IMG/VR virus record: IMGVR_UViG_3300010373_000084
Coordinates: 1 to 40,277 of that record
Origin: a virus
Strand: one strand, 5' to 3'
DNA length: 40,277 nucleotides
A model generated the notes under the pieces. It made no database searches. It saw only the letters and a program-made list of their open reading frames with translations, and was not told where the DNA came from. A program made the translations under genes and the position numbers. Shown piece by piece: positions 11,027 to 33,129 of the stretch. The stretch's first letter is position 1. Every line of letters begins with the position of its first letter.

Positions 11027-11473
11027 TTATACCGCCATCGAGCCGTTGAACTCGAGGCGAGGCGTCGTGATCGCGGCCCGCGTGTATTGGCCGCTCTGAT
11101 AGTTGTGGAACACGCAACCGATGTAGGTGTTCTGCTCCACCGAGCCGCCTACGGTCGGCGGATTAATCGTCTCGACGATCGTGAACGTGCGCCCGGGCTG
11201 CAGGTTGTAGAACAGTTGGTCCAACTGCTTCATGATGGCGAAGAAGTTGCCATTGGCCTTCTCCACTTCGATCGTGCCCGAGCATCCGCGCGGGATGCGT
11301 TGATGGTTGACGACGCCGCCGCCGTCGATGGGAGCACTTGTGACCAGCTCATCGTCGAGCTTGATCTCCATCATGCGGCGTTTGCCGTCGAGTTGTACCT
11401 GCGCTTTGCTCTGATCGTCGATGATGACGATCGATTGCAGCGTACCGGTGATAAAAGCTCCGGTGGCGGTCAT
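11027..11473 (-). CDS. Tail tube protein
   Basis: A 148-residue protein directly downstream of the sheath, with the size (about 140-170 residues) of contractile-tail tube proteins. It is predominantly beta: a long strand pair around LQSIVIIDDQSKAQVQLDGK and KRRMMEIKLDDELVTSAP, then GTIEVEKANGNFFAIMKQLD and a C-terminal strand TRAAITTPRLEFNGSMAV. ATG 11473 is preceded by AGGGAG at eight bases. A strong terminator separates it from the sheath gene, so its expression may rely on readthrough or another promoter. Confidence 0.82.
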   Translation of the reverse strand: MTATGAFITGTLQSIVIIDDQSKAQVQLDGKRRMMEIKLDDELVTSAPIDGGGVVNHQRIPRGCSGTIEVEKANGNFFAIMKQLDQLFYNLQPGRTFTIVETINPPTVGGSVEQNTYIGCVFHNYQSGQYTRAAITTPRLEFNGSMAV

Positions 11474-11554: not shown

Positions 11555-13513
11555 CTACTGCGCGGTTTGCACCACGACTTGCACGTTCGGCCCGACCTGC
11601 AAGAGGTTCAGGATGAACTGCGCGCTCGAAAGCGTCGTGATATTGACCGAGATAATCAGGAAGCCCTGAGCCGCGGTCAAGGACGTGTTTTGCGAGCCGA
11701 GCGTGAACGAGAAGTCGCTGATCTGCTGCGGCTGGCCGAACTTCATGGCGTTGAAGAGCGCCATCGCGGCCTTTTGAATCAGGCCGAACGTCGGCTGGCC
11801 GAGATTCGCCGGGTTCGTGTCGATCGGGCCGTCGACGAACTGCCCCTCGATCTGCTGAAGCAGGTCGGTGACGAAGCAGAGCATCCGAATGTCGAGGATC
11901 CGCGTAACGCCGTCCGACGTCATGCCGTTGGGCAAGCCGAACAGCGGACCGCGCGCCGAACGAGGCGGCCGACCGATATAGAGAATGCCGTTCTGTTGAC
12001 GACGGCCGGCCTCGGCCTGCGTGACCGAGTTGATGCCGTTGACGATCCGCTCGGTCCCGAGTAGACCCTGCGCGCCAAAGACGGGCTGGTTACCGGGCGA
12101 GAGATACGCCGAGACGCCCGAGATGATGCCGGCGATCTTGGCCGATGGGTACGAGAGCAACGTGCCGCCCGAGAGCGAGTCGTTGACGCGCACCCAATCG
12201 ATGCCGAGTACGAGGCCCGGGTTCGCCAAGCCGTAAGACTGACGGATACCGATGGCCGCGTCGGTCGTGGTGCCTTGCTCGAACGAGAAGTGCACGACGC
12301 AGTTCTCGCGCGTGCGCCACACGATCATGTCGGGAACGATGGTCGGGTCGGTGAGGCCCGCGATCATGACCTGCGCGCCGGAAACCTGGCCGTTCAGGGC
12401 GTAGAGCCCGGTCGGGCCGACTTCCAGATCGTCGCCGAGCAACATCTCCGGCGTAAGGCCCGAGGTGCCGTCCGTACCGCCATCGGCGGCTTGCGGCGTG
12501 TTGAGCGTCGGCGGGATTTGCGCCGAACCGGCGACGGCCGTCCAATAGGCCGAACCGGACTGATTGGGCAGCGTGCCGTTGATGGCTGCGATCGCGTTGG
12601 CTTGCGCCGTCGTCGCGTCGTATGCCCCGCCCGCCGTGGCGTAGGCTTTGATGTTCTGATAGACCTCGGTCTGATAGCCGGGGAAGTTGATGGCGATCGA
12701 CAGGACCGGCTGATAGTTCATCGAGCCCGACTGTACTGTAACGAGCGCCGTCGCTCCGGCTTGGCCCGGGTTCGGAAGCGAACCGGTGAACTTATTGGTG
12801 AGCACCAGGAAGTTCACGTCGCTGCCGCCGGTGCCGCCGGTGAGGGCGGTCGGGGAGCCCGGGGTGAGCGTTGCGCCGCCGCCGGTCGTGGTGCCCGAGA
12901 TCACGATGCTGTTGCCGGCCGTTCCGGGCTTTAGGGCTGCGACGCCGATCGTTTCACTGCCGCCGGGAAATACCGGTTGCACGAAGGCTTTGGAGCCGAT
13001 GACCGCGCCGGTTTGATTAAAGAGCTTGATGACCGCAGCGATAATGTCGTCGAGCGAATCGCTGGACAGGACCGTGTACGGCTCGGAGGTGTACGAGAGC
13101 GCGCCGCTCGCACTTGAGGCGGCGACGGTCATCGAAACGGTGTTGCCTGCAGCGGGCGTACCGCCAGCCGTCAAGGCGCCTGCGGCGTAGTTGCCGTTCG
13201 TTCCGAGATCAAGCACCGCGGCTACATCGGTGCCGTCCGTAACGCGCACGCCCAGGAACGATTGGCACTCCGGCATAGCCGTGAGAGCCGCGCGCACCAA
13301 GGAGTATTGCGAGGTGGTATCCGTGCCGAACATCGAGATGAGCGAGGGCCCATCGGTGAAGGGCTGCGGACTGTCGACGGGTCCGTAGTTCGCACCGCTC
13401 ACGATGTCGACCATGCCCGTTGCGGGCCCAGCCGGAGTCGGTGGAACGGTAACCGGCTCGACGAAAACGCCGTCCGTGGTGAAGTTCCCGGGGTCGGTAT
13501 TCGTGATGATCAT
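11555..13513 (-). CDS. Tail sheath protein
   Basis: A 652-residue contractile tail sheath subunit. Near the C-terminus it shows the family hallmarks: LGTERIVNGINSVTQAEAGR, TRILDIRMLCFVTDLLQQIE and a final AQGFLIISVNITTLSSAQFI strand that carries the extended arm linking neighbouring subunits. Residues about 120-230 are an Ala/Gly/Thr-rich beta insertion (AGNTVSMTVAASSASG) also seen in two head-tail proteins of this window. ATG 13513 is chosen because AGAGG lies six bases upstream; an upstream in-frame codon at 13531 is inside the leader structure. It is followed by a terminator and the tube gene. Confidence 0.92.
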   Translation of the reverse strand: MIITNTDPGNFTTDGVFVEPVTVPPTPAGPATGMVDIVSGANYGPVDSPQPFTDGPSLISMFGTDTTSQYSLVRAALTAMPECQSFLGVRVTDGTDVAAVLDLGTNGNYAAGALTAGGTPAAGNTVSMTVAASSASGALSYTSEPYTVLSSDSLDDIIAAVIKLFNQTGAVIGSKAFVQPVFPGGSETIGVAALKPGTAGNSIVISGTTTGGGATLTPGSPTALTGGTGGSDVNFLVLTNKFTGSLPNPGQAGATALVTVQSGSMNYQPVLSIAINFPGYQTEVYQNIKAYATAGGAYDATTAQANAIAAINGTLPNQSGSAYWTAVAGSAQIPPTLNTPQAADGGTDGTSGLTPEMLLGDDLEVGPTGLYALNGQVSGAQVMIAGLTDPTIVPDMIVWRTRENCVVHFSFEQGTTTDAAIGIRQSYGLANPGLVLGIDWVRVNDSLSGGTLLSYPSAKIAGIISGVSAYLSPGNQPVFGAQGLLGTERIVNGINSVTQAEAGRRQQNGILYIGRPPRSARGPLFGLPNGMTSDGVTRILDIRMLCFVTDLLQQIEGQFVDGPIDTNPANLGQPTFGLIQKAAMALFNAMKFGQPQQISDFSFTLGSQNTSLTAAQGFLIISVNITTLSSAQFILNLLQVGPNVQVVVQTAQ

Positions 13514-13556
13514 TAGGGGCCTCTCCGGCAAATGAAAAGAGGCCCGGTGGGCCCCT
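13511..13556 (-). promoter_or_regulatory. Alternative hairpins over the sheath gene start
   Basis: Three overlapping pairings exist on the leftward mRNA: an 8-bp stem (positions 13517-13524 with 13538-13545), a 7-bp stem (13515-13521 with 13550-13556) and a 5-bp stem (13541-13545 with 13549-13553). The first two cover the sheath Shine-Dalgarno; the third, which forms first, leaves it free. They are mutually exclusive. Confidence 0.5.
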
Positions 13557-17941: not shown

Positions 17942-18682
17942 CTAGGAACCCGAAGGCAAAGTTAGCGTGTACGTCCACTGAATCGAGTCGCCGCTGCTTA
18001 CGTTAATGGCCGAGAACGTCTTATGGTCGAGCATGACCGGGCGAATCACCAGCGCGTCACCGCTCTGCGGAACCGCACCAGCAGCCGTACCGTCCGCGAT
18101 CTTGTACCATGCGGGAACGCTAATGATGCTTGACGTATTGCCGACGCACAGGCCGTAGAACGGAGAGGCTGCGGTCGTATCCTCGAAAATGTGCTGCTCT
18201 TGCCCCTGCACCGTCGACGATGACGGGGTATAAGGCGTTCCGGTCGCCGTGCCGCTCGTCGCTGAGCCTGCCGTCCAGGGCGTTCCGGTCGTAGCCGAAA
18301 GCGTACTGTCCGTAAACAGTCCAAACTCCGTCACAGCTTCCGTGCCGGTGTAGTTCACCGTCGCCACGACGCGATACGCCTGCACGTTAGCCGCACTCAG
18401 TAAACTCTGAGTACCGGATACGGGACTGATAGAATCCCAGGCTTGCAGCGCAATGTCGGTCGCCGCGGCCGGCGTCGTGCCGGTTCCCGTTGCAACCCAC
18501 TTCGCCAAAGCCAGCGTATTGATCGGAGCGCCAGAAGGCGCAGCCCAGGCAAAATCGTTCGCCATCGCCATGACGCCAACGTTCGTCACCACCCCGATAC
18601 CGAGGTCGCGCTTGTCGATGATCTTGCCGAGACGATAATGCGCCACCCATACATGCCCTACGGGCCGAACGATCGACTTCAT
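17942..18682 (-). CDS. Phage structural protein with GTGTT motif
   Basis: A 246-residue protein starting at ATG 18682, with GGGAG about eleven bases upstream; an earlier GTG at 18700 has no site. The segment LALAKWVATGTGTTPAAATD matches a motif that recurs in phage fibre and structural proteins (a K-x-x-x-x-GTGTT-x-A-x-x-x-T pattern), followed by beta-strands (AYRVVATVNYTGTEAVTEFG). The C-terminus is beta-rich, ending with SIQWTYTLTLPSGS. It probably forms part of a particle surface together with its neighbours. Confidence 0.75.
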   Translation of the reverse strand: MKSIVRPVGHVWVAHYRLGKIIDKRDLGIGVVTNVGVMAMANDFAWAAPSGAPINTLALAKWVATGTGTTPAAATDIALQAWDSISPVSGTQSLLSAANVQAYRVVATVNYTGTEAVTEFGLFTDSTLSATTGTPWTAGSATSGTATGTPYTPSSSTVQGQEQHIFEDTTAASPFYGLCVGNTSSIISVPAWYKIADGTAAGAVPQSGDALVIRPVMLDHKTFSAINVSSGDSIQWTYTLTLPSGS

Positions 18683-18788
18683 GAGTTCAGTAACTCCCAC
18701 AGGGCAGAAAGAAATGGTTTCTTAGGAACGGGTTTGCGAATTACGACTGCTGCAAGGTCACCCGAAGGCGCTACGCTACCCCAACCCA

Positions 18789-18984: not shown

Positions 18985-19896
18985 TTAGCCGACGTAAATA
19001 TCGCGTTCGGGATTCTTCCCGACCGTCGTCTCGTTTTTGACCGCTCCCAACACGGAAACAGCCGAGGTGAAAAGGATGCCGTATTGCACCGTAAAGTTTA
19101 TCCGCGCGACGTAGGCCGAGTAACTCGACTGCGAATCGTCGTCGTATGCCCCGCCGTTCGTGTTCTCAAGGTAGAACTGCGAGCCGTCAGGGAACGATAG
19201 GAAGCGCGTGAACGCCGTCCCAACTCGAGCCACGATCGCATCGGCCAGCAACTCCCGAGCATACGGGTCGTTCGCCCACACGGTAGCGACGATCGAGCGC
19301 GAGTACCGGCCGACCTCGTAGGCAATCGTCGAACCCGTGCCGCCGATGTTACAACGGAGGTCCGAGATGCCTTCGGTCGTTACCGCGGCACCGGAAGCAG
19401 AAGCCGAGACACCCGGTAAGTCGAGCGCGTTGATCGCTGCCGCCACCGCCGAGGCAACGCTGTCGATTGACTGATTCGGAGTCGTCTGAACGTAGGCGTC
19501 GCCATCCGCATCGACCACGGTATGCACATTGATGGGCTGCGTACCGACTGAGCCAGAGAACGTGATAACGCCACTTGCGACAGAGGCGGCCACGGAAGGC
19601 GTTGGGCCCGGGATAAAGAGGGGCTGGTCGTAGGGGCTAAAGGCTGTTTCGTCCTTGGCTGGTCCGAGCGGAAAGACGCTAATCTGCCACGTTCCGGGAG
19701 GCTCGGCGAGAATTTTTACCAGCTCGGGAACGAGCGGGTTGCCGACGTAAATGCGGCCATCGGGCGAAAGCGTCGCATTGAGCGGATCGCCAGAAGGCGT
19801 CTTGGCAACGTACTGCGAGCCAAGAATGTTCGCCTCGTCGAGCGCGCCCTTGAGCGAGTTGCAAATCGCGAGACAGAGGTCGTTAACTCTCCCCAC
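18985..19896 (-). CDS. Neck or tail-terminator-like protein with beta insertion
   Basis: A 303-residue protein. GTG 19896 is chosen because GGAGG lies nine bases upstream; it overlaps the receiver gene by 14 bases. The ends look like a phage tail terminator or neck protein: N-terminal helix GRVNDLCLAICNSLKGALDE and a later SIVATVWANDPYARELLADA followed by IVARVGTAF. Between them, residues about 105-185 form a beta insertion (ASGVITFSGSVGTQPINVHT plus SIDSVASAVAAAINA) of the type seen in sheath proteins. It is expected to act at the head-tail junction. The assignment is moderate. Confidence 0.7.
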   Translation of the reverse strand: MGRVNDLCLAICNSLKGALDEANILGSQYVAKTPSGDPLNATLSPDGRIYVGNPLVPELVKILAEPPGTWQISVFPLGPAKDETAFSPYDQPLFIPGPTPSVAASVASGVITFSGSVGTQPINVHTVVDADGDAYVQTTPNQSIDSVASAVAAAINALDLPGVSASASGAAVTTEGISDLRCNIGGTGSTIAYEVGRYSRSIVATVWANDPYARELLADAIVARVGTAFTRFLSFPDGSQFYLENTNGGAYDDDSQSSYSAYVARINFTVQYGILFTSAVSVLGAVKNETTVGKNPERDIYVG

Positions 19897-20248
19897 CTGC
19901 GAGCGCCTCCATGACCTTGGCTTTGGTGGCCTCGCCACGCTTGTAGGGCTTGGTAATCGCCTTCATGCCGCGTGCGCGGTACTGCGCGACGAGATGCTGC
20001 GCTCCGGTCGCCAGGATGACGTGCTTAGCGTATCCTTGAGCGAGAATGGCTTGAGCCGCAGCGTCGCCGTTCATTGGCTCCATGTTGACATCGAGAATGG
20101 CAAGGTCGGGGAGCGTCTTGCGGCAGGCTTCGATCGCGTCAGCGCCGGTTTTGGCTTCGCCCACGACTTCCCACTTGAGGTCCGCCAGAACGAGGCCACG
20201 AAGGATTCCGAGCGAGATGCTGTTATCGTCAGCGATGACAACTCGCAC
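19883..20248 (-). CDS. Single-domain response regulator, CheY-like receiver
   Basis: A 121-residue protein that is a complete receiver domain with no output domain. The acidic pair D7-D8 (VIADDN), phospho-acceptor D53 (AILDVN), T81 (ILATGA) and K100-P101 (ITKPY) all stand at canonical spacings, so it should accept phosphate from a histidine kinase. The aromatic switch position (CheY Y106) is A97, so signalling to a CheY-type target is uncertain. GTG 20248 has GGGAG seven bases upstream. It lies inside a head-to-tail structural operon, downstream of a small zinc-finger gene and behind its own promoter. Receiver-only proteins are rare in phages. Partners could be host kinases, flagellar motors or a two-component branch; none is encoded nearby. 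Confidence 0.93.
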   Translation of the reverse strand: MRVVIADDNSISLGILRGLVLADLKWEVVGEAKTGADAIEACRKTLPDLAILDVNMEPMNGDAAAQAILAQGYAKHVILATGAQHLVAQYRARGMKAITKPYKRGEATKAKVMEALAGGES

Positions 20249-20266
20249 GGCGAAGCTCCCTAATCG

Positions 20267-20407
20267 TCAGATAGGCGCAATGCGCTTCCCGGACGCACGC
20301 AAGCATTTCAGGCAAAACACGCGACCATCTGACCATTTCTTGGAATTGGCTTCAGTCAAACCGTGGCCGCGCTTACATGAACTTCGGCTACAAATAGAGC
20401 GCTGCAC
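20267..20407 (-). CDS. Zinc-finger microprotein upstream of the receiver gene
   Basis: A 46-residue frame from GTG 20407 to TGA 20267. It carries ICSRSSCKRGHGLTEAN and DGRVFCLKCLRASG, that is C-x4-C, then GH-x-L-T-x-x-N, then C-x2-C. This is a widespread phage pattern of small zinc-binding proteins (C-x-x-GH-x-L-x-x-x-N...C-x-x-C). There is no Shine-Dalgarno, but a TATAAT box lies seven bases before the GTG, so the mRNA would be leaderless. The stop is 18 bases before the receiver start. Function unknown; DNA or protein binding is plausible. Confidence 0.75.
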   Translation of the reverse strand: MQRSICSRSSCKRGHGLTEANSKKWSDGRVFCLKCLRASGKRIAPI

Positions 20408-20414
20408 TGCTACT

Positions 20415-20443
20415 ATTATACGCTTAAACGGCGGTCTTCTCTA
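20415..20443 (-). promoter_or_regulatory. Promoter for the zinc-finger/receiver pair
   Basis: On the leftward strand TAGAGA (4 of 6 to TTGACA), a 17-base spacer and a perfect TATAAT (20415-20420). It overlaps the end of the upstream gene. The predicted start is about one base before the GTG at 20407, giving a leaderless message. Confidence 0.72.
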
Positions 20444-21218
20444 CGATTAAAATATAGCCGCCATCGAGTCCAGCATCCGCCGACGCATAGACTTCCATGA
20501 TCTCATACCGGTCGGACGAAGAAGCGTTGATGCGGTCCTGTTCGTTCAACTGCTCGCCATTGAGCATCGGAACAAACGCCAAATGATGCGTCCGATACTG
20601 AATCGTCGGCACCTTCGGAATCGTACCGTCCCGCACGCGGTTCAACGGCTGCAAGCCAATCGGCAGCGTTGCTCCGGTCGAAGCGTCCGGTGGGCTCTGG
20701 AAGGTATAGACGCCGTTGGTGAGCGTCAAATACTCCTCGATGCCCTTGTACGTTCCGCCCCACGCATCGTCGACGACTACGCCCGAGCCGGGAGTCTGCT
20801 GCGAGGACGAGCCGGCGCCCGTGTTGGGCCGCGAGATGAAGCCCTTAACTTCACCGCGGACGAACAGCGAAACACCCATTGGGCGACGCTGGGCGAAGAT
20901 GAAGATGTTGTTCTCGAGCGCTTCGTAGCCGGTTTCCACCAGCACGTCGCCGATCTCAAGGTCGCGATTGTCGCAAGTACCGACGAACACCTGAAGATCG
21001 AAGGTCGTGTTTTCGATGTGCTTCTTTTGCGCCTTAGCCGGCGAGAGCGGGAATCCGGTATAGAGCGCCGGGCCATTGAGAATCGACCCGCTGGTCGTAT
21101 TGGTCATGCGGAAAACGTCGTAGGTCTGCCCGACTACCGCGCCGATCGCGCCCTGCGCCTGCTGAATGGCGTCGTCGATCTGCGGCATGGTCCCAAAGGA
21201 CGGAAGAAAACCGCCCAC
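20424..21218 (-). CDS. Head-tail junction protein, hypothetical
   Basis: A 264-residue protein starting at GTG 21218, which overlaps the previous stop as TAGTG. An ATG at 21188 is a possible alternative. It has an N-terminal helix (DDAIQQAQGAIGAVVGQTYD) followed by a long beta-rich region (LQVFVGTCDNRDLEIGDVLV, then IFIFAQRRPMGVSLFVRGE) and a C-terminal YEIMEVYASADAGLDGGYIL. It sits two genes after the capsid protein, where head-closure or stopper proteins are found. I recognise no specific family; the role is inferred from position. Confidence 0.72.
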   Translation of the reverse strand: MGGFLPSFGTMPQIDDAIQQAQGAIGAVVGQTYDVFRMTNTTSGSILNGPALYTGFPLSPAKAQKKHIENTTFDLQVFVGTCDNRDLEIGDVLVETGYEALENNIFIFAQRRPMGVSLFVRGEVKGFISRPNTGAGSSSQQTPGSGVVVDDAWGGTYKGIEEYLTLTNGVYTFQSPPDASTGATLPIGLQPLNRVRDGTIPKVPTIQYRTHHLAFVPMLNGEQLNEQDRINASSSDRYEIMEVYASADAGLDGGYILIVEKTAV

Positions 21219-22066
21219 TAGGCAATCGCGCCAGCGCTACCGCTGCGGCCTCCGCCAAACTTCTTGACGTACTCCTCGCCCCCAAGCGCGCGCGACATAG
21301 CCGCGACATACTCGAGGTAGAGAGCACGACGCGCTCCGAGTTCCGACTGCCGAAACTTCGCACCGCCACCGCCAGCCGCCGAGCCGCTTTCAAGCCACAA
21401 GCTCAACTGCTGTTGCGTCATGCCCATCGCGAGGTAATCGCAAATGGCGATGAAGCCGTAAACCGTTGACTTGGTGCCCGTTGAGATCGACGTGAACGTC
21501 CCGACCACCGGACAGGGCGTGCCAGGGTTCTCGATCGTGATGGCCGTCGTGCCGACGCACGAACCGGTCAGCGTGAATACCGCCGAGCCGGGTCCAAGAA
21601 TGACGACTTCCGCGAAGTACGGCGGAAGATACTGCGGCGAGAACAGGTCGGCCGGCTCGACCCCTACGGTCGTGTAGCCAAGCGACTGCAAAACTTGATT
21701 GATGGCGTTCGCCGAGTTCAGCGCAATCGAATACAGCGGCGCCGCCTGCGACGGATTAACGGGATTGGCCGGCCTGTCGAAGTCCGACGCCTGCACCGTG
21801 TACGTCGCGGTGTAGGTATTCGTCCCGTCGTTGAGGTGGTACGTCAGCACGTCGTCGACGGTCGGCATCCCACCGAGACGGAAGGACCCAAGCGAGACGC
21901 CCGTGAGCAGTTGCTCCTCGGGCGCCTGCAAGTTGTTCATCCGGAACTCGAGGTCTTCGTTGTACCAAGTGAAACGCCAGCCGTACAAACGGCCAGCCTC
22001 CGCCGTGCCGGCAAACGGTACGCCGAGATGCCGGCGGATCGCCACCTTTTGCGCGAGCGAAAGCAT
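21218..22066 (-). CDS. Head-tail adaptor-like protein with inserted beta domain
   Basis: A 282-residue protein immediately after the major capsid gene. It starts with MLSLAQKVAIRRHLGVPFAG, similar to the first helix of head-tail adaptor proteins, and ends with a helical bundle (FIAICDYLAMGMTQQQLSLW and ARRALYLEYVAAMSRALGGE). The middle (about residues 70-185) is a beta-rich insertion (NTYTATYTVQASDF and IALNSANAINQVLQSLGYTT), resembling the insertion in the sheath and in the 303-residue neck protein. ATG 22066 has AAGGGG seven bases upstream. Confidence 0.72.
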   Translation of the reverse strand: MLSLAQKVAIRRHLGVPFAGTAEAGRLYGWRFTWYNEDLEFRMNNLQAPEEQLLTGVSLGSFRLGGMPTVDDVLTYHLNDGTNTYTATYTVQASDFDRPANPVNPSQAAPLYSIALNSANAINQVLQSLGYTTVGVEPADLFSPQYLPPYFAEVVILGPGSAVFTLTGSCVGTTAITIENPGTPCPVVGTFTSISTGTKSTVYGFIAICDYLAMGMTQQQLSLWLESGSAAGGGGAKFRQSELGARRALYLEYVAAMSRALGGEEYVKKFGGGRSGSAGAIA

Positions 22067-22148: not shown

Positions 22149-23645
22149 TTAGAACGGCGACGCGGCCTGCAGCACTACGCCGCGCTTGTAGCGGCAGTAG
22201 TCTGAGGTCAGGACGATCGTCGGGTTGGACGACTTGTCCGTGCGCGGTTGGAAGTCGCCGATGTAGTCGTAGGCCAACTTGATGACCTGACCCAGCGTGT
22301 CCAGGGCCGCGAGCGAACGGAACCGGATGCGATCCACGACGCGCTCGTCCGCAACGTCGCCGACGCCGGCAACGATCGACTGAGCGTCGCGCACCGCGGC
22401 GAACGGATGCTCGGCGATAACGTCCTGTCCGAAGACAAACGCCTCGCGCAGGCTGAATCCGCCAGCCGGTGCCTGATACTGTGGAACCTGCGTCGCTTCC
22501 GTGAACTCAACGCCCCAGCCGGCGGCAATCAAGCCATCGGCGAAGACGCGCGAACGATCCCAATTGGTCGCGGTCGCACGCTGGAAGCCTTCGTCGCCAT
22601 AGAACGACGCGAGCAGCGTGGAGTCGATCGCGCAGCCGTACAGGCCGTTGGCGAGTTTCGGAACGCCGCGCCGCTTCAGAATCGACACCGCGTAGGGAAT
22701 CATCACGGACGGGTCCATGACGTTGGTGACCGCCATGTTATTCGCCTGAGTGATCGGGGAGCCGCCACTGTCGAGCGGACGCACGACGTAGGAGCCGTCC
22801 TTGTAGACGGGATTGAGCGGGTCGCCGATGGTCGGCGGGTTCGCGGCCGAAGCCGCACCCGGATCCACCGCCACGATGCGGTCGCCGCTGGCTGCGCTCG
22901 TTCCCGAGAACGTCGCCGGGGTAAGCGTGCCCGACTGACCGAACGCGATACCGCCGCTTTGCATGTACGACACGTTGTCTGTGTCGATCGTGTAGTTCGT
23001 GAACGTACCGGTGGCCTTGATGAGGCCGGTCGTCTTGTCCACGACCACGAACGACATGGGCGCCTGCGAGGACGTCGCCTGCGGAACCTTATACAGCGGG
23101 AGGTCCGCCGTAGGATACTGCAGGATGAAGCCGTTCACGTTATCGACGTGAATCGCACCGCTCGAGGTTTGCGCGGCCACCGCGAAGGTGTCGCCCGAAT
23201 CGTAGTTCGACAACGCACGGTTGACGCAGACCAGCTCGAGCGAGTTGCCCGCCTTCTGCGCCAGCGCGTACATGTTGTCGAGGTACAGGTCGGCAATGAG
23301 CGTTTCCTGACCGTAGATGTTGGTCGGGATGAATCCCGGCCACTCGGTCAGCGTCGCGTTCCATTGCTCGAACGAGCGCACGTCGGCCGTCATGCCGTTG
23401 TCTAAGCCGGTGTTATCGGCCGGATTGAGCGGCGTGATGTTCGGCGCGATCAGCGCGCGCGAGGTGAAGGTCTTGGTTTCGCCGATGCGGCCCGGGAACC
23501 AATCCATCGGGTCGATCTTGCGCGGCCGAAAGACGAGCGTCGGGACGATCGACTTGCGGATGAAGGTTTCGAGGAAGTTCTGCTGCTCGATGACGTTGAG
23601 CAAAGCAGCCGGGAAGCCATTGCCCCCGGAGCCATTGATGGGCAT
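22149..23645 (-). CDS. Major capsid protein
   Basis: A 498-residue protein following the scaffold. It begins INGSGGNGFPAALLNVIEQQ and then has NFLETFIRKSIVPTLVFRPR, an N-arm and E-loop typical of HK97-fold coats that use a separate scaffold. Near the C-terminus it has VDRIRFRSLAALDTLGQVIK and a final YCRYKRGVVLQAASPF strand. The central part (about residues 175-300) is Gly/Ser/Thr-rich and may be an insertion domain like that of P22-type coats. ATG 23645 has AGGAG nine bases upstream. No maturation protease is encoded nearby. The 118 bases upstream have no gene. Confidence 0.88.
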   Translation of the reverse strand: MPINGSGGNGFPAALLNVIEQQNFLETFIRKSIVPTLVFRPRKIDPMDWFPGRIGETKTFTSRALIAPNITPLNPADNTGLDNGMTADVRSFEQWNATLTEWPGFIPTNIYGQETLIADLYLDNMYALAQKAGNSLELVCVNRALSNYDSGDTFAVAAQTSSGAIHVDNVNGFILQYPTADLPLYKVPQATSSQAPMSFVVVDKTTGLIKATGTFTNYTIDTDNVSYMQSGGIAFGQSGTLTPATFSGTSAASGDRIVAVDPGAASAANPPTIGDPLNPVYKDGSYVVRPLDSGGSPITQANNMAVTNVMDPSVMIPYAVSILKRRGVPKLANGLYGCAIDSTLLASFYGDEGFQRATATNWDRSRVFADGLIAAGWGVEFTEATQVPQYQAPAGGFSLREAFVFGQDVIAEHPFAAVRDAQSIVAGVGDVADERVVDRIRFRSLAALDTLGQVIKLAYDYIGDFQPRTDKSSNPTIVLTSDYCRYKRGVVLQAASPF

Positions 23646-31105: not shown

Positions 31106-32341
31106 TCACGCCGCAACCTTTTCCCGCATCGCATGAGCATACCCCAACACGCCGGCGCGCCACCGTGGTAGCACGGCCGACATGAGGTAGTTTCCGCGAA
31201 TGAACGCCCGACTCGTATCCACCAACGCCTTCCGCTTCTGCGGATGATCGACGAGATCGAGCAGCGAGCGTACCCACACCCGGTCATCTTCCGGCGGCAC
31301 CGCTACGATGCCATCGGGACATTCTTGTGCGTACTGAGCATACGGCCCGTACTTCGTTGCGACCACCGGCACACCGGCCATCGTGTACTCTAACACCTTC
31401 ACATTGCTTTTCGAGCGGTTAAAGATGTGGCGTTCGAGCGGAGCCAGGGCAATATCGAGATCGAGGTTCGCCAACGCCTCGTAGTACCGAGGCATCAGGC
31501 TATCACTGAACAGGCTCGGCCGCTGGTTCTCGATCGTCTTGGCAACCGTCGCGCCGTCGAAGTCCATACGCGCCCAATACTCGCGCTTGAACAGCCCGCG
31601 CAAGTCCTGGCCGTAGAATACCACCCGCACCCGCGGGCGCTCGTCCATGACCTTCTGCAATGGCTTAACGATTGTTGCAACGTCGCCGACATGCGAAGTC
31701 GAGCCGACGTACCCAATGCGGACCTGTCCGATGCGCTTCGGACTCTCGCAGAACGAGGACGGGAACCGAGCGCAGTACGCCTCGAACGTCTTGTCCTCGA
31801 TCGCATTGGGGCACACAACCGACCGCGGGTTGTCCAGCTCGTACACCTCGCGGAGTTCTTCCGTCGAGAGCACCAAGAAGTCCGCCGCTCTAGCCGCGCG
31901 TTGAAAGCGCTGTGTATTCGGGCGGCCGTTGCCGAAGATTTTGAAGAACGCCGAGCGCGGAGGAATCGACTTGAGATTGTCGTCCGATTCGAGCGCGACG
32001 ATCGGCCGGCCACCGCGGGCCACCAAGGCTTTCGCCGTCGCCGCCATGCCCTGTTTGAGAGCGGGCCGCTGCGCTTCGGGATACTGCGCCGCCGTTCGCT
32101 CGGCCAGCGCCGCAAAGGCGGAGGTCGGGTCCAGCGACGTGAGCGCCTCCATAAACTCTACGACGACATCGGTATGGGCACGCTGGAATACGACAAGATC
32201 CGCTTCGGTAATCTTTGGCGAGGCGACCGTGTCGACGATCGACAACTCGAACCCATCTGATTCGGCAAGAGCGCGAAAGGGAGCCATGAGGCGATAAAAT
32301 CCGCATCCGCCAACGTCGCCCGGAGCGATTACGACCTTCAC
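31106..32341 (-). CDS. GT4-type glycosyltransferase
   Basis: A 411-residue protein of the GT-B fold (glycosyl transferases group 1). The C-terminal domain carries the family signature NVKVLEYTMAGVPVVATKYG with an upstream FNRSKS. The N-terminus VKVVIAPGDVGGCGFYRLMA is the usual first strand plus Gly-rich acceptor loop. GTG 32341 overlaps the GT9 gene stop as GTGA. It would transfer a sugar from a nucleotide donor to a glycan or protein acceptor. It is the last gene of the cassette and converges on the small-gene operon. Confidence 0.87.
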   Translation of the reverse strand: MKVVIAPGDVGGCGFYRLMAPFRALAESDGFELSIVDTVASPKITEADLVVFQRAHTDVVVEFMEALTSLDPTSAFAALAERTAAQYPEAQRPALKQGMAATAKALVARGGRPIVALESDDNLKSIPPRSAFFKIFGNGRPNTQRFQRAARAADFLVLSTEELREVYELDNPRSVVCPNAIEDKTFEAYCARFPSSFCESPKRIGQVRIGYVGSTSHVGDVATIVKPLQKVMDERPRVRVVFYGQDLRGLFKREYWARMDFDGATVAKTIENQRPSLFSDSLMPRYYEALANLDLDIALAPLERHIFNRSKSNVKVLEYTMAGVPVVATKYGPYAQYAQECPDGIVAVPPEDDRVWVRSLLDLVDHPQKRKALVDTSRAFIRGNYLMSAVLPRWRAGVLGYAHAMREKVAA

Positions 32342-33129
32342 GCTGCCACCGCTTCGGCCTTGATTTTCTCTTGCTCGGCCGCTTCGATCACCGCAAGCAG
32401 ATCCCGCGTGCGCCATTGATGAGGCGCAGCATAGACCACCGATGCCTTCGGATGCATCTGCCATTGCAACGGCGTAATCGTCGTCGCAATCAAAGCGTGA
32501 TTCGAGATGCCGGCGGCGTGCGCCAATCGGCTACAGGCCGAGTCCGTCGTAATGACGGCCTTCTTGCAGGCGCGCATGAGATTAGCGACATAGCTCAGCG
32601 TCTCGCCATAAATGTAATCGTCGGCGTCAAACCCGAGCAGCGGTTCGTCGCCTCTAGCGCCCAAGATGCCGATGCGATTTTGGTTTGGGCCAAGAATGTC
32701 TACGAGCGCCTCAACCTCGGGCACTCTCATCCCGCGCGCCGGGTCTTTCGACCACGGAGCAATCAGATAATCATAGGCCGGAACAACCACCGGGAAATCG
32801 TCAAGCGCTGGCTGCTGCGGCATACAGGGCACGTCGAGCCCGAGCAGCGCGTAGAACTGTTGCGTCGGATGCCCAACGTCTTTGAAGAAGTAACCACCGC
32901 CGAGCGCAGCGACGACGCCGATCTCGAACGCATCATCCGCGTCGGTTGGATCGTAAGTCGTCGGCCGCACGTTATCCGGCCACGCCATCAATCTCTGGAC
33001 TTCTTCATTCGCCATTTGCAGCCGAATACTGCAGTCCGAGAACTCCTTGGCGAAGGCGCAGATAGCGGGCGCCGCCATAATCGAGTCGCCAATGTTCTTG
33101 TCAACGTCGCGAATGTGGATGATGCTCAC
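32338..33129 (-). CDS. GT9-type glycosyltransferase (heptosyltransferase-like), second copy
   Basis: A 263-residue protein of the GT9/heptosyltransferase fold. It opens with VSIIHIRDVDKNIGDSIMAA, the GT9 N-terminal strand with an IGD-x-x motif, and near the C-terminus has AVITTDSACSRLAHAAGISN, which corresponds to the D-x-G-P/A-x-H-L-A-A-A donor-site motif. GTG 33129 is preferred over the upstream ATG at 33162 because GGAG lies eight bases before it. It overlaps the zinc-ribbon peptide gene. It is shorter than typical heptosyltransferases (about 320-350 residues). Confidence 0.85.
   Translation of the reverse strand: MSIIHIRDVDKNIGDSIMAAPAICAFAKEFSDCSIRLQMANEEVQRLMAWPDNVRPTTYDPTDADDAFEIGVVAALGGGYFFKDVGHPTQQFYALLGLDVPCMPQQPALDDFPVVVPAYDYLIAPWSKDPARGMRVPEVEALVDILGPNQNRIGILGARGDEPLLGFDADDYIYGETLSYVANLMRACKKAVITTDSACSRLAHAAGISNHALIATTITPLQWQMHPKASVVYAAPHQWRTRDLLAVIEAAEQEKIKAEAVAA

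Follow-up and report, generated by a model that had tools for sequence, protein, structure and literature searches.

A stand-alone CheY-like receiver gene inherited with the tail module of an uncultivated myovirus clade

Phage-borne receivers are known so far as scattered cargo. The DNA analysed here (the window) comprises the 40,277 bases of the virus contig IMGVR_UViG_3300010373_000084 in IMG/VR, in which genes for the terminase, portal, capsid, sheath, tape measure and baseplate lie on the same strand. Among these structural genes lies a receiver without an output domain, and the locus raises the question of what such a protein does there. An earlier note, made from the letters of the window, had proposed that the receiver belongs with a small zinc-finger gene in a module that has its own promoter and is expressed outside the late phase. 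The relatives of the window point to a different answer.

The receiver gene occupies positions 19883 to 20248 of the minus strand and encodes a single-domain, CheY-like protein of 121 residues from a GTG start. Its active site is complete (D7, D8, D53, T81 and K100), as the earlier note had stated, and A97 occupies the switch position, three residues ahead of K100, so that the note was also right to describe the switch aromatic as replaced. The protein scores 51.1 bits against the Pfam family PF00072 (Response_reg; curated cut-off, 30.2), no other Pfam family was reported up to an E value of 0.1, and structure prediction gave a confident receiver fold (pLDDT 94, pTM 0.87). The top Protein Data Bank (PDB) matches of this model are receivers, and a search of a viral structure library returned only distant receivers. 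A Shine–Dalgarno sequence read from the sequence, AGGGAG (20256 to 20261, minus strand), lies 7 nt ahead of the receiver start, and AGGAG or GGGAG also precedes the start in the related contigs L005, L002 and L041. The GC contents at the three codon positions (0.69/0.43/0.72) carry the phage's codon signature, and the receiver stop overlaps the start of the next gene by 14 nt.

That next gene, A3 (18985 to 19896, minus strand; PHROG 13532), precedes the sheath gene in relatives and possibly encodes a tail terminator. On the upstream side lies A2 (20424 to 21218, minus strand), which is assigned to PHROG 14605 in 7 of 11 members and whose predicted fold is nearest to phage neck and connector proteins (Pam3 neck, Douge connector and phiXa connector; E values of 0.002–0.04), a resemblance that we take as a lead rather than proof that A2 is a neck/stopper-like protein. 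The receiver does therefore sit amid head–tail structural genes, as first described. Further upstream are the connector gene (CONN; 21218 to 22066) and the gene for the major capsid protein (22149 to 23645), a homologue of the phiKX1 coat protein; further downstream are the tail sheath gene (11555 to 13531), a homologue of the phiKX1 tail sheath, and, directly after it, the tail tube candidate (11027 to 11473), all on the minus strand. The window also encodes a 252-residue protein between A3 and the sheath (17942 to 18700), common among the fetched loci only to L005, and a glycosyltransferase-like open reading frame (ORF) at 31106 to 32464 (PHROG 7162, E = 1e-28).

Viral contigs were scanned with the receiver, A2 and the capsid protein as queries, which recovered a whole lineage. 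A profile scan of the 93 fetched loci and the window, in which overlapping loci of one contig were merged, found A2 and A3 together in 39 distinct contigs, and the receiver lies between these two genes in 17 of them, the window included (L003 and L004 are identical across their overlap and were counted once). Fifteen of the 17, again including the window, were recoverable without the receiver query, and L009 and L028 were found only through it. In whole-contig searches, every one of 15 receiver contigs (15/15) had a single receiver, and ten relatives without a receiver at the A2/A3 site had none. Across the 17 sequences, which share about 30–65% identity, D7, D8, D53 and K100 supply four of the eight columns that are invariant, and position 81 is T or S throughout. 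That all five active-site positions are kept at this divergence argues that the phosphorylation chemistry is under selection. Comparison of the window with L005 put dN/dS at about 0.19 for the receiver, in line with A2 (0.17) and A3 (0.18); with dS of 1.3–1.8, these estimates are rough. By these values, purifying selection acts on the receiver as strongly as on its two neighbours.

These observations bear on two doubts about the gene. The earlier note had considered that the receiver might occur in homologous phages only as a chromosomal contaminant, an idea contradicted by the 17 syntenic phage copies. Functionless accidental cargo, or contamination from a host, would be in keeping with the nested contigs L049 and L050, which carry no receiver, but it is scarcely credible for a gene with that many syntenic copies, an intact active site and the dN/dS given above. 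The note had further called such proteins rare on phages; this holds for sequenced phages, in which tblastn gave 13 weak receiver matches in 50,697 records, but not within the lineage, in which 17 of the 19 members of the A2 clade have the gene.

That clade is one group of 19 in the A2 tree (support 85), with L049 and L050 as the exceptions, a topology compatible with one gain of the receiver plus one or two losses. The receiver trait is scattered on the capsid tree, where it needs three changes, because the head and tail modules recombine. In the receiver tree (121 columns), the phage receivers need one change, with a support of 0, and a single origin could not be proven. Empty sites, at which A2 is followed directly by A3, occur among related phages and prophages, namely in an Aquabacterium MAG (L044) and in the viral contigs L064, L081 and L082. 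The same arrangement is found in the cultured Komagataeibacter phage phiKX1, which has no receiver and in which A2 (PhiKX1_520) ends at the base where A3 (PhiKX1_530) begins. Searches of sequenced phages with a divergent A2 query led to phiKX1/2, and the window's own A2 and A3 found no match there by tblastn. In genome scans, the capsid query led to four genomes and the A2 query to no relatives.

Pairwise identities among the 17 contigs fall into two blocks, one comprising the terminase, portal, capsid and connector, and the other A2, the receiver, A3, the sheath and the tube. In Mantel tests, the receiver correlates with A2 (r = 0.58, P = 0.0005) and A3 (r = 0.42, P = 0.004), and its correlations with the tube and the sheath are r = 0.33 and r = 0.31, respectively. 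It is uncorrelated with the capsid (r = 0.09, P = 0.23), and likewise with the portal and the connector. The window and L005 are 65% identical in the receiver, 63% in A2 and 63% in A3, as against 25% in the capsid. Together, the identity blocks, the Mantel tests and this pair of genomes place the receiver in the tail module, of which A2 is the first gene; the connector gene is the last of the head module. A recombination boundary (window 21218/20424) separates the head module, from terminase to connector, from the tail module, from A2 onward.

A fixed place among morphogenesis genes and inheritance with tail genes would fit a role in assembly as well as one in the host cell. The receiver could be a switch in assembly or in the virion, whose phosphorylation state would act on A2 and A3, gate head–tail joining or tail maturation and couple virion completion to host signalling. 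It always adjoins A2 and/or A3; its start or stop overlaps A3 in most contigs, and it overlaps A2 in L008, L015 and L061. It is co-inherited with both genes and not with the head genes, was retained through the head-module exchange seen between the window and L005, and has in A2 a neighbour whose predicted fold resembles neck/stopper proteins. Adjacency by itself accounts for the co-inheritance, however, and L042–L044, phiKX1 and the nested contigs L049 and L050 have the same capsid, neck and sheath genes without the receiver. We therefore regard a switch of this kind as unlikely, although it is the strongest of the alternatives. It is distinctly improbable that the receiver, sensing the activity of host kinases, acts by way of the adjacent neck and tail proteins to decide whether or when heads and tails join, such that virion completion would depend on host signalling.

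The slot between A2 and the receiver is where the earlier note had placed a 46-residue zinc-finger gene and a promoter. An ORF of 46 codons that encodes a C-x3-H...C-x2-C motif is indeed present (20267 to 20407, minus strand), but it has no Shine–Dalgarno sequence, its GC contents by codon position are flat (0.46/0.59/0.57, against the receiver values given above), and no homologue was found among the other fetched loci, which leaves the zinc finger in 1 of the 17 phages. The ORF matches HNH PHROGs weakly (E = 0.002), and its 46 codons hold the zinc-binding motif alone, the HNH catalytic core being absent. In L009, a complete HNH endonuclease (36 bits to Pfam HNH), with two motifs that resemble the zinc-finger motif of the window (pairwise E = 0.006), occupies the same slot (L009 3941–4750). 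The window ORF is probably either a relic of an HNH endonuclease or spurious, and, judged from the gene content of the contigs, the A2–receiver junction is an insertion hot spot.

The promoter fared similarly. The string TAGAGA-17-TATAAT can be read at 20443 to 20415 of the minus strand, and it includes the sole exact TATAAT of the 40-kb window, in which 3.3 would be expected. Promoter-like sites as a class occur at the level of chance, with four found against 3.0 ± 1.9 expected, and the −35-like hexamer of this one falls within the upstream coding sequence; the site is not conserved, and its independence finds no support. Elsewhere, the receiver follows A2 at a spacing of 10 nt (L005), 11 nt (L002), −1 nt (L008) or −4 nt (L015 and L061), which leaves no space for an intergenic promoter. 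Synteny comparison finds the zinc finger paired with the receiver in the window only, and a zinc-finger–receiver module expressed early from its own promoter is highly improbable. Expression of the receiver outside the late phase finds no support either, as the gene abuts or overlaps its structural neighbours in relatives.

Other genes also border the receiver in particular contigs. About 4 kb of tail-fibre-like genes lie between A2 and the receiver in L016 (5786–9682). Small helix-rich ORFs of 91–110 residues adjoin the receiver in L008 (5363–5635), L061 (11599–11871), L010 (4678–5001) and L028 (5688–6017); those of L010 and L028 occupy the slot between A2 and the receiver. The ORFs of L008 and L061 are homologues of each other (E = 2.6e-8), with another copy in L048 (1433–1684). 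These ORFs gave no family match save a weak one to DUF413, and they may encode a partner protein of the receiver.

Among cellular proteins, the nearest solved structures by profile are the CheY proteins of P. horikoshii and T. maritima (PDB 6er7 and 1tmy). One contig, L041, is binned in an Eremiobacterota MAG, and A2 was found in that MAG only among 149 genomes of its phylum; this single binned contig points weakly to Eremiobacterota as the host lineage. CheW is present in 19 of 31 genomes of that Eremiobacterota family, and the MAG carrying L041 gave no CheW match. In most of the CheW genomes, the phage profile scores highest, at about 100 bits, on a stand-alone receiver that lies a few kilobases from CheW on the same contig; the best other receivers score about 80–90 bits. 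These CheYs share with the phage receivers a T/S-x3-Q motif after the switch T/S, and the Q (window position 85) is present in 12 of the 17 phage sequences. The window receiver falls short of the CheY equivalog cut-offs (NF041367, 45 of 200 bits; NF007901, 22.9 of 189 bits). Chemotaxis-operon CheYs are thus the nearest cellular relatives in the sense of a best match and, because the receiver tree is unresolved at 121 columns, descent from CheY is to be read in that sense rather than as demonstrated ancestry. Within the family, the residue three ahead of the lysine varies (A/T/F/W/L/I/C/V); the switch aromatic of CheY is not conserved, and the target need therefore not be the flagellar switch.

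Searches of the clade's virus contigs, which extend up to 129 kb, found no HATPase_c and no HPt domain, an absence that is not proof as many of the contigs are fragments. With no kinase or HPt domain encoded there, the phosphate has to be supplied by the host or by a small donor, which agrees with the earlier suggestion of a host kinase as the likely source; with neither a kinase nor an output domain, both partners of the receiver must lie elsewhere. A full active site, the missing output domain, the loss of the CheY switch aromatic and the lack of a phage kinase would also suit a pure phosphate sink or kinase decoy, which would only drain phosphoryl groups from host kinases and have no output surface. 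Such a sink would require abundance rather than a fixed spot among tail genes, and sequence alone does not separate it from a CheY mimic; we hold it to be quite unlikely.

The reading that we favour, as probable if only just, is that of a phosphorylatable stand-alone receiver of the CheY class, captured from a bacterium, made late and acting on host signalling through host kinases. An ancestor of the myovirus clade would have captured the gene, which would have been kept since in the tail module. Its product, made late alongside the structural proteins, would receive phosphoryl groups from host kinases, in the first place CheA-like ones, with other histidine kinases possible. In the infected cell it would then work in trans as a competitor of the host's CheY, draining the chemotaxis or motility output or imitating it. 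Late in infection, the motility or the surface appendages of the host would change as a result, to the benefit of the phage, for instance by excluding superinfection.

Here, then, almost all members of a divergent, uncultivated clade of myoviruses carry a receiver at the same site, with its chemistry intact, and the gene travels together with the tail module. The fully preserved phosphorylation site suggests that this family taps host sensory kinases during infection. Whether phages connect to the two-component signalling of their hosts in the late phase can be tested on this case, for which the empty-site relatives, the cultured phiKX1 included, provide a natural comparison. Should the assembly role be the true one, the receiver would represent a phosphorylation-controlled step in tail joining, of which we know no earlier example.

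Several known systems resemble parts of this picture. The archaeal, Thermotoga and Bacillus-type CheYs and those of Eremiobacterota che operons are, like the phage receiver, single domains with the T/S-x3-Q motif; unlike them, the phage receiver lies in a tail operon, has an unconserved switch aromatic and scores far under the NCBIfam CheY cut-offs. The cREC (cyclic-phosphate processing receiver) of jumbo phages is another phage-encoded receiver fold, but it is a divergent domain linked to NAD+/ADP-ribose enzymes (PMC7824862), whereas the window receiver has canonical PF00072 as its only Pfam match. PIT4, a protein of Pseudomonas phage LSL4, abolishes pili and motility and binds histidine kinases of the host (PMC10714779), which shows that phages do attack the host two-component layer. 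Its targets, two-component systems and motility, are those proposed for the window receiver, but PIT4 is the product of an early gene, binds kinase domains and, in the available part of its description, is not presented as a receiver. The closest precedent is found in the Alteromonas phages V22 (gp30) and A5 (gp11), in which the host-recognition module, itself exchangeable, includes a CheY-like protein proposed as a class II auxiliary gene (PMC7289586, PMC10579305), and phage CheY-like proteins are therefore already known as a kind. No earlier report of the window receiver family itself was found in the open-access library searched. The V22/A5 and window cases both concern a small phage receiver among tail or host-recognition genes that is exchanged with them. 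V22 gp30, however, scores only 39 bits against the window-family profile, as compared with about 120–156 for members, and tblastn of sequenced phages with the window receiver gave no V22 match. The V22/A5 receiver has 149 residues with a C-terminal tail, is placed after a tail-fibre chaperone and has been reported in a few cultured phages, whereas the window receiver has 121 residues and its family lies between neck and sheath genes. On these comparisons, the window family differs from that of V22 and A5 in sequence, position and breadth.
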